Source: a bacterium (GTDB taxonomy: Bacteria > Pseudomonadota > Alphaproteobacteria > Caulobacterales > Hyphomonadaceae). Taken from it: 64,000 nt of DNA. Under the pieces are notes generated by a model, which saw nothing but the letters and a program-made list of their open reading frames with translations, was not told the origin of the DNA and ran no database searches. A program made the position numbers and the translations under genes. Each line of letters begins with the position of its first letter. The first letter of the stretch is position 1. The stretch lies in assembly GCA_016125045.1 (NCBI GenBank), contig WGML01000004.1:124001-188000 (forward strand). The letters run 5' to 3'. This document shows positions 12,299 to 19,957 of this stretch, one piece after another.

Positions 12299-12718
12299 CT
12301 AGCGCGTCTTCGCCTTCGCGGGCGACGCGGCGTCCGGCGCGAGCGAGAGCACGACCGCCGCGACGAGCGTGTCCTTCTGGCGTTCGACCTCCGGCAGATC
12401 CTCGTAGGGGATGAGGAGGGGATGGGTTTTCTTCTTGCCGTCCTTCACCTTGCCGTAGCGCCAGCCGTTCGCGAGCTTTTCGTCCGCCCACTGGTCATGC
12501 TGGGCCGACGCCGGCGCCTTGCGGTGCGCGAGACGCCACACGACGGCCTCGCGTGAGGCCGTCTTCATCCACGCCGGAGCGCGCGACCAGGGCGGGGCCG
12601 CCTCCTGGCCGTTCGCCATCTGCCAGGCGCGCACCGCCTCGTGCATCACGCGCGCGATGCGGGTGATCTCCGGAGCGGGGTCGGGCGCGGGCGATCGAGG
12701 GGGCTTCTGGGTCGGCAT
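12299..12718 (-). CDS. Small RyR-domain protein
   Basis: 139 aa from ATG 12718; HDQWADEKLANGWRYGKVKDGKKKTHPLLIPYEDLPEVERQKD matches the ryanodine-receptor RyR repeat signature. Confidence 0.85.
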   Translation of the reverse strand: MPTQKPPRSPAPDPAPEITRIARVMHEAVRAWQMANGQEAAPPWSRAPAWMKTASREAVVWRLAHRKAPASAQHDQWADEKLANGWRYGKVKDGKKKTHPLLIPYEDLPEVERQKDTLVAAVVLSLAPDAASPAKAKTR

Positions 12719-12771
12719 GGGCGCACGCCTTTTGCGGCGGAGGGGTGAGGGACTGCGGCGAGCGTGGGCGG

Positions 12772-17942: not shown

Positions 17943-18070
17943 GCATGTGGTTTCGGGACCGAGTAGGTCGAACGGCGCCGGTTCACTGCATCAGCCGGCA
18001 TTTTTTGGCGGTTTGCGCTCGATCTTCCGGGGCATTCGTCCGATTGTTCCGGTTCGGGGAGGATCATCTC

Positions 18071-19957
18071 ATGGCGACGTCGCGAGGGGGGCCGGCCGTA
18101 GGCCTCGGATTCTGGCTGTTCTGGACGCCGACCGTGCTCGCGGGCGTGGTCGCGATCGTGCTCGGCGTCTGGGGCTGGTCGATGGTGGTGAAGCCCTTCG
18201 ACGCCGAAACCTGGTCGGACCTGGTGAGCCGGTTGGGAGATGTGATGGTGCGGTCGGTGAAGTCGCCGCTCCTGTCCGACATCTATTATGAGGAATGGAT
18301 CCACGAGGCCCGGGCCGCGACCGGATTTCCGGTGCTGGAAACCTCCCGCGATCTTGGCGTGCTGTTCGCGGTGCTGGTCGCCGCCCGCGTCTTGCTGTTC
18401 GCCGTGACGTCGATGAGCCTCGGCGTCGCCATGCGGTGGCGCAAGGGGCATGACATCGTGCTCGGCGAGACCGAAGCCGCCGAGCAGTACGCCGCCGAGA
18501 CGGCGAATGTCGACAAGCGAGAAGTCACCTACATCAAGGAGATTGAACGCAACCGCCGCGGCCGGCTCGCCCTGCTGCGGCGTGACGCCCCGGTCGAGCG
18601 CGAGCTGATCGATGCAGGCTACAAGGGCGCAAGGCGGATCATGATCGCCGAGGAGACGGACGAACAGTCCTGGGCGACGGCGCAGATCGCGGCGCGCCTC
18701 GCCCCGCGCAATGTCCAGGTGCTCGTCTATGTGTCGGATTTCTGGGTGAATGAGCGGTTCTCCCGTTCCCTGCTGCTGCGGTCGTTTTCCTACGAGGGCG
18801 GCGTCGCGCGGCAGGTCATCCTCGCGCACCCGCCCTATCTGCTCGCGCGGCGGCTGAAGGCGGCCGCGCAGCACATCATCGTCGTCGGGTTCGGCGCGGT
18901 CGCGCAGGCGATCGTCCGCGAGTTCCTCCTGTCATGCGTGTCGGTTTCGCCCGAACGCATGATGGTCACCGTGATCTGTTCCGACATCGTCGCAGCCGAG
19001 TGCGAGTTCGACGAGCGGTGTCCTGGGTTCAAGCAGGGCGCGGCCGGTGGCGGCGTCGATATCGCGTTCCTGGAGGGCGACGTCTCGACCGGGGTCGGCC
19101 GCGGACGGCGGCGGAGCGGAGAGGCGTTCACCGACACCGAACACTATCTTGATCGCGATCTCGCCGAGCGCTGCATGGAGTCCCCCCCGGCGGCCGTCTA
19201 CATCGCCCTTGAGGCTGAGGAGCTGCCGCTGCGGACCGCGATCATCTTCCGCGAGCGGGCGATCCGGGAGCGCTGGTTCAGCGCGCCCATCTTCATCTGG
19301 CGGGCGGGCGGGCTGGAGACGGTGGCGCACGGGGCGGGCGTCGTCGGCGAGTTCGACGACAAGTCAAATCCCAGGACCCAGACCGGCCTCCTCTCCGGGC
19401 TCGGCCTTTATGGCTTCGGCTCATGGCGCGACGCGTTCGACGGCGAGGGCTTGTTCGAGCCGGAGCTCGACGGTCGGGCGAAGGAATTCCACGCGATGTA
19501 CCAGGCCGAGATGAAGCGGACCAATCCGGCCGACACGACCCCGGACTGGAGCAAGCTCGGCGAGGAGTTCCGCGTGTCGAACCGCCGGGTCGCCGCGCAT
19601 ATCCGCGCGAAGCTCGATGCGGTGGGGTATGACCTCGACGCCTGGCTGGCGAGACGAAGCGACTACCACACGCATGACCTGCCTGTGGGCGCCGAAAAGG
19701 AAATCGAACTCGAAAGCGTCGAGGAGATGAACCGGCTCGCGGAGCTGGAGCACCGCCGCTGGTCACTGGATCGGGTGCTCAACGGCTGGACCTATGGCGA
19801 TCCGCGCGACAATTTCCGCAAGCTTCATCCGAAGCTGATCCCGTTTGAAGATCTCGACGAGGGCGAAAAGGAAAAGGACCGTCGCAATATCCGGCAGACG
19901 GCGAAAATCCTGAAACATGTCGTGGCGAAAGGGGCCGCGGCGTCAACGCATCGCTAG
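18071..19957 (+). CDS. Two-TM protein with TrkA-N/RCK-like Rossmann segments and C-terminal RyR domain
   Basis: TM helices WLFWTPTVLAGVVAIVLGVWGW and DLGVLFAVLVAARVLLFAV; HIIVVGFGAVAQAIVREFL Rossmann; MNRLAELEHRRWSLDRVLNGWTYGDPRDNFRKLHPKLIPFEDLDEGEKEKDR RyR; GGGGAGG Shine-Dalgarno before ATG 18071. Confidence 0.85.
   Translation: MATSRGGPAVGLGFWLFWTPTVLAGVVAIVLGVWGWSMVVKPFDAETWSDLVSRLGDVMVRSVKSPLLSDIYYEEWIHEARAATGFPVLETSRDLGVLFAVLVAARVLLFAVTSMSLGVAMRWRKGHDIVLGETEAAEQYAAETANVDKREVTYIKEIERNRRGRLALLRRDAPVERELIDAGYKGARRIMIAEETDEQSWATAQIAARLAPRNVQVLVYVSDFWVNERFSRSLLLRSFSYEGGVARQVILAHPPYLLARRLKAAAQHIIVVGFGAVAQAIVREFLLSCVSVSPERMMVTVICSDIVAAECEFDERCPGFKQGAAGGGVDIAFLEGDVSTGVGRGRRRSGEAFTDTEHYLDRDLAERCMESPPAAVYIALEAEELPLRTAIIFRERAIRERWFSAPIFIWRAGGLETVAHGAGVVGEFDDKSNPRTQTGLLSGLGLYGFGSWRDAFDGEGLFEPELDGRAKEFHAMYQAEMKRTNPADTTPDWSKLGEEFRVSNRRVAAHIRAKLDAVGYDLDAWLARRSDYHTHDLPVGAEKEIELESVEEMNRLAELEHRRWSLDRVLNGWTYGDPRDNFRKLHPKLIPFEDLDEGEKEKDRRNIRQTAKILKHVVAKGAAASTHR

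Follow-up and report, generated by a model that had tools for sequence, protein, structure and literature searches.

A conserved RyR gene pair with an optional protease-muramidase cassette is a candidate reader of TIR-made ADP-ribose signals in an alphaproteobacterial family

A four-gene locus in a Hyphomonadaceae genome encodes two RyR-domain proteins and, between them, a protein with two trypsin-like proteases and a GH108 muramidase fusion. The locus lies in the 64,000-nucleotide stretch that we analyzed (GenBank assembly GCA_016125045.1, contig WGML01000004.1, positions 124,001 to 188,000; below, the window), and its products are a small stand-alone RyR protein (sRyR), a membrane protein that ends in an RyR domain (mRyR), a TPR-S/double protease, and the GH108 fusion. 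All four open reading frames were verified at the positions and on the strands given in Table 1, with minus-strand gaps of 17 and 53 bp, which upholds the compact divergent layout of the original prediction, a note made earlier from the DNA sequence. The gene arrangement is not a matter of chance, given that homologous loci hold equivalent genes. The locus occurs mainly in TIR-rich bacteria, suggesting that it reads TIR-made ADP-ribose signals, and we hold with modest confidence that it works as a reader/executor module, responding to ADP-ribose-type signals from TIR proteins whose genes lie elsewhere in the genome.

The association with TIR genes was seen in a search set of 398 genomes of the order, 93 of them from the family, in which RyR was found in 87/398 genomes and TIR_2 was searched with counts listed to 10 per genome. 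Within the family, the median number of TIR matches was at least 10 in RyR-positive versus 2 in RyR-negative genomes, and at least five TIR genes were present in 28/30 versus 5/63 genomes (p = 1.9e-16; like the p-values below, not corrected for kinship and overstating the independence of related genomes). The trend was also seen inside genera g2, g3, and g4, and in the other families of the order, where 39/57 RyR-positive versus 27/248 RyR-negative genomes had at least five TIR genes (p = 4e-18). One family of TIR-TM proteins occurred in 12 of the 30 RyR-positive and none of the 63 RyR-negative family genomes (p = 2e-7). We considered that RyR genomes might merely be rich in defense genes and rejected this, given that the controls do not follow: type I restriction-modification (HsdM_N) was not enriched (5/30 RyR-positive versus 24/63 RyR-negative), and caspase counts, judged by inspection, were no higher in RyR-positive genomes. 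The surroundings of RyR genes in relatives contained 25 TIR genes in 730 kb versus about 4 expected; their distribution was clustered, one locus having 8 of them, and 14 of the 39 loci had any. These neighborhoods abound in TIR, patatin, and STAND conflict genes, and at L100 a TIR-WD40 gene lies 67 bp from sRyR. Beside the g2/g3 loci stand proteins of 1200 aa that resemble TIR-STAND proteins at first sight; in the two submitted to Pfam, TIR is instead combined with WD40 propellers. As a separate observation, one 20-kb stretch (L097, G150:C2:84001-104000) holds eight TIR genes, a patatin gene, and a TPR-S protease-GH108 pair around one sRyR and thereby forms a dense TIR/RyR island.

The host genome itself (loci L112-L128; 2.96 Mb) encodes 16 TIR-domain proteins, 13 of which have a membrane segment predicted by hydropathy, and some of their tails match OmpA, Sel1, subtilase, or PG_binding_1 (below cut-off). 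Among RyR-positive relatives, 15 of 16 TIR loci (the strongest TIR matches and thus a nonrandom sample) share the plan of TIR, membrane segment, and tail, and the position usual for the TIR Glu is occupied. This Glu is catalytic in TIR NADases.

The RyR, Trypsin_2, and GH108 domains named in the original prediction were all recovered by Pfam above cut-off. For RyR (PF02026), the two window proteins scored 51.8 and 56.2 bits against a cut-off of 27.4 (E = 4.2e-15 for mRyR). Residues 19-121 of sRyR match PDB 35tm, the RyDEP-3'cADPR complex (E = 2.9e-9; cADPR, cyclic ADP-ribose), 288 phage records were matched with a best identity of 40-44%, and by this sequence evidence the relationship of sRyR to phage RyDEP extends over the full length of the protein. 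RyDEP is a phage RyR protein that hydrolyzes 2'cADPR and 3'cADPR (PMC13232231, a 2026 preprint), and two phage homologues have nanomolar affinity for these nucleotides (PMC13232231). Its ligand and catalytic residues are H75, W78, H100, and D117 (crystal structure 35TM; PMC13232231). The same H, W, H, and D are present in both sRyR and mRyR of the window at the RyDEP spacing of +3, +25, and +42, and every complete sRyR across the order keeps all four in the alignment of relatives. sRyR is like RyDEP in the extent of the domain over its whole length, in these residues, and in their spacing, whereas RyDEP is a phage-encoded countermeasure and sRyR is chromosomal, encoded alongside an effector cassette and a second RyR protein of RCK-channel-like build. 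At L101, RyR is joined to TPRs, and a patatin-RyR fusion (L092:9346-11079) corresponds to a phospholipase of the type found in the cyclic oligonucleotide-based antiphage signaling system (CBASS) with an RyR domain.

Conservation of the locus is best described as a two-gene core with an optional cassette. Three genera of the family retain all four genes as a group; genus g4 (G249, G315, G371, and G229, whose mRyR was missed by gene calling and recovered by the RyR search) repeats the divergent order of the window, and in genus g9 (G279, G284, and G377) all four genes are codirectional. In g2 and g3, sRyR is accompanied by TPR-S with one protease and a GH108 protein; in some of these loci the TPR-S protease and the GH108 protein are fused and the GH108 domain is unrecognizable, and most adjoin TIR-WD40 or TIR-OmpA proteins. 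Cassette and RyR are linked in five genera, and TPR-S and RyR lie within 5 kb of each other in 14 of the 16 family genomes that have both. At the site of the window, the order is Fur, CoA-transferase, sRyR, the protease and GH108 genes where present, mRyR, and the 97-aa gene, with HrpB further on. Loci of relatives (L079, L082, L083, L099, and L091) carry sRyR and mRyR head to head at this site with no cassette, and L103 carries mRyR alone. This makes the RyR pair the broader unit, with the cassette as an optional insert between sRyR and mRyR, codirectional with sRyR. This leads us to reject the view of the four genes as one fixed system; the expectation that they stay together elsewhere was borne out in other genera but not for the four as a fixed unit.

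The predicted structure of mRyR (AlphaFold2, mean predicted local distance difference test score 78.6) begins with a pair of long helices that enclose two shorter ones, followed by two Rossmann domains and the RyR domain (residues about 540-628). Its closest Foldseek matches were TrkA (1e-5), GsuK (6e-5), and MthK (7e-5), followed by RyR repeats; given that TM-scores were low, the likeness to channels gated by RCK (regulator of K+ conductance) domains is a fold hint. The TrkA-N-type Rossmann domain that the original prediction proposed to search for is thus hinted at by the predicted structure but not by sequence, where TrkA_N stayed under the Pfam cut-off (E = 0.43). Like the RCK-gated channels GsuK and MthK and the TrkA gating ring, mRyR is predicted to have tandem RCK-like Rossmann domains next to a two-helix membrane part. 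Unlike RCK-gated channels, it adds a C-terminal RyR domain and has no GYG filter in the sequence between residues 36 and 95.

The cassette proteins carry intact catalytic residues. The TPR region of the protease protein, which had been expected to be TRAFs-binding/DUF4071, instead matches TPR-S (PF20308; 32.4 bits versus a cut-off of 27.6, E = 1.4e-7) and is fused to the proteases (Trypsin_2, E = 2.4e-23; Trypsin, E = 9.5e-12). Both triads are intact (H518/D564/S662 and H936/D987/S1074) and, counting the window protein, are kept in 17/17 and 8/8 aligned proteins, respectively. The muramidase protein matches GH108 (E = 9.8e-30) and PG_binding_3 (E = 1.1e-11), and its catalytic residue, Glu362, is intact and kept in 13 of 15 aligned proteins, the window protein included. 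By Foldseek, the GH108 part of its AlphaFold2 model matches Brucella SagA, Salmonella TtsA, and NMB1012; TtsA and SagA act on the cell wall. The fold and the catalytic Glu are shared with these muramidases, whereas the 330-residue N-terminal region of unknown kind and the linkage to RyR and a TPR-S protease are not. Sequence and structure searches gave no convincing match for residues 1-330, which are found in 20/398 genomes, and a C2-like fold was rejected as too weak (Foldseek E about 0.03-0.1). Hydropathy detected no N-terminal hydrophobic segment in the fusion. In the GH108 fusions of L004 and L008, the EGG motif bearing the catalytic Glu is absent, and the muramidase part may therefore be noncatalytic there. 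A single protein at L072 (6709-10986) combines part of the GH108 N-terminal region with TPR-S and a trypsin-like protease, and this fusion is evidence for cooperation between the two proteins of the cassette.

We propose that TIR proteins, many of them membrane spanning and some perhaps touching peptidoglycan, would make an ADP-ribose-type signal. mRyR, as a membrane protein like an RCK-gated potassium channel, could sense 2'cADPR, 3'cADPR, or a related nucleotide through its C-terminal RyR domain, and sRyR may bind or slowly cleave the signal, thereby setting a threshold or providing a readout for soluble partners; it is possibly a sponge or off-switch. The TPR-S region would sense an alarm or a partner and free its proteases, which might act on the GH108 fusion, on host proteins, or on both, and the GH108 domain could then cut peptidoglycan, so that an infected or damaged cell would be arrested or die. 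That the muramidase lyses the cell, as the original prediction had it, is a guess: the fusion has no N-terminal hydrophobic segment, and its catalytic Glu is missing from two relatives. The broader idea of a nucleotide-based conflict system is strengthened by the binding of TIR-made nucleotides by RyR domains (PMC13232231), but the likely source of the signal is shifted to TIR proteins elsewhere in the genome.

Several observations weigh against a reader/executor module of this kind. The window has no TIR gene, the nearest being about 53 kb away, and TIR-rich genomes without RyR exist (5/63 in the family and 27 in the other families). The statistics come from related genomes, as noted above, and the source assembly is only 82% complete. 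In genus g4, the second, phosphate-binding His of mRyR is replaced by Arg; the Asp position was left unscored in several mRyRs outside g4, where the alignment ended short of it. Two relatives of the GH108 fusion are without the active-site Glu, and PADLOC gave no match for either RyR protein or for the muramidase. Lastly, the window locus occupies a stable site between housekeeping genes, unlike a mobile defense island. Enrichment in defense islands had been set as a check by the original prediction; relatives lie near TIR, patatin, and STAND genes, but the window locus is not in such an island.

As in Thoeris (a ThsB TIR synthase with ThsA or another effector), a TIR-made ADP-ribose signal would be read by a separate effector; here, however, TIR and reader do not share an operon, and there are many membrane TIR proteins per genome. 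No Thoeris-type ThsB gene stands beside an effector in the window, the 16 TIR proteins being encoded elsewhere in the genome, and Pfam found no ThsA-type reader (SIR2-SLOG or Macro) among the four proteins, the reader domain here being RyR. No CBASS CD-NTase was found among the four proteins by Pfam or PADLOC; the only CBASS element is the patatin effector in distant RyR loci. Nucleoside triphosphate-dependent and protease-based conflict systems (PMC7159879) share trypsin-like proteases, TIR, and peptidoglycan-associated domains with the present case, and the main text of that study does not mention RyR, TPR-S, or GH108.

The RyR genes could instead be mainly off-switches or immunity factors, that is, host-encoded, RyDEP-like sponges or glycosidases that clear leaked TIR signal and so shield a TIR-rich cell, in a role like that of the ring nucleases of type III CRISPR, with the cassette a separate effector pair. 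The full-length relationship of sRyR to RyDEP, the intact H/D catalytic dyad of complete sRyRs, the RyR pairs without a cassette, and the way RyR presence follows TIR number all suit this explanation. We nevertheless consider it unlikely, given that fusions of RyR to effector-like parts (the channel-like protein, patatin, and TPR) suit a reader, that the cassette almost always adjoins sRyR, and that most phage homologues assayed bind without cleavage (PMC13232231). Still more doubtful is a role in envelope or ion stress rather than phage defense, in which mRyR would couple the state of NAD/ADP-ribose or adenine nucleotides to ion flux while the TPR-S proteases and GH108 repair or remodel peptidoglycan. 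The stable housekeeping site, the structural kinship of the GH108 part with TtsA and SagA, and the PG-binding domains on host TIR proteins are consistent with such a role, as are the GsuK/TrkA-like fold, whose matched structures carry ADP, NAD, or an ATP analogue, and the adenine ligands bound by the R12 domain of RyR3 (PMC13232231); the patchy presence and the TIR, patatin, STAND, and TIR-WD40 conflict genes near relatives' loci argue against it. A third alternative, in which the proteases and the muramidase would function in exporting proteins or in contact-dependent competition and the RyR genes would be incidental neighbors, is suggested by the best structural matches of the GH108 part (SagA, NMB1012, and the secretion muramidase TtsA) and is highly improbable, given that no holin, toxin, or secretion genes were recognized among the immediate neighbors tested and that cassette and RyR stay linked in five genera.

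Within the window, Fur and CoA-transferase genes border the locus on the sRyR side, and HrpB lies beyond mRyR and the 97-aa gene, which may or may not be part of the system. A virus or prophage origin was rejected, as the GH108 N-terminal region had no relative in viral contigs and the neighbors are housekeeping genes. The start of mRyR lies 165 bp from that of the GH108 fusion on the opposite strand; judging from this divergent layout, both promoters are probably within the intergenic region, where no sigma-70 consensus was found. Away from the locus, a protein encoded at 50128-52074 has an M23 peptidase domain; it also matches MG2 (alpha-2-macroglobulin-type), though weakly and under the cut-off.

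Table 1. Features of the RyR locus and its flanks (window coordinates)
Feature	Position	Strand	Description
CoA-transferase III flank	10292..11509	+	Marker of conserved chromosomal site; outside the system
sRyR	12299..12718	-	139-aa stand-alone RyR domain; Pfam RyR E = 9.9e-14
TPR-S/double protease	12772..16194	-	1140 aa; TPR-S region, then two trypsin-like proteases
GH108 fusion	16212..17906	-	564 aa; N-terminal region 1-330, GH108, PG_binding_3
Intergenic region	17907..18070		Between divergent GH108-TPR-S-sRyR run and mRyR
mRyR	18071..19957	+	628 aa; membrane part with two predicted helices, two RCK-like Rossmann domains in tandem, RyR at the C-terminus
97-aa gene, function unknown	20003..20296	-	Adjoins mRyR in most g4, g5, and g7 loci

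In summary, the locus is real and conserved, and the RyR reader with its channel-like partner would be new elements within TIR-nucleotide signaling; we claim no priority for the general link between RyR and conflict. The reader/executor interpretation places a host-encoded RyR on the bacterial side of this signaling, where the RyR proteins described so far are phage-encoded and act by destroying or sequestering the signal, and it would tie TIR signaling to proteolysis and wall cleavage. A further prediction of this interpretation is that a TIR nucleotide gates a channel-like protein in bacteria, with a bearing on the old question of how cADPR acts at animal ryanodine receptors. More tentatively, the many membrane TIR proteins, whose variable tails would lie beyond the membrane, might form a receptor-like network that senses danger across the genome's whole TIR set, all writing one ADP-ribose signal that is read by a single RyR module via the channel-like protein, with the cassette as an optional executioner. 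If this is true, bacteria would have, in the TIR network and RyR module, an equivalent of the action of cADPR on an RyR-bearing channel.
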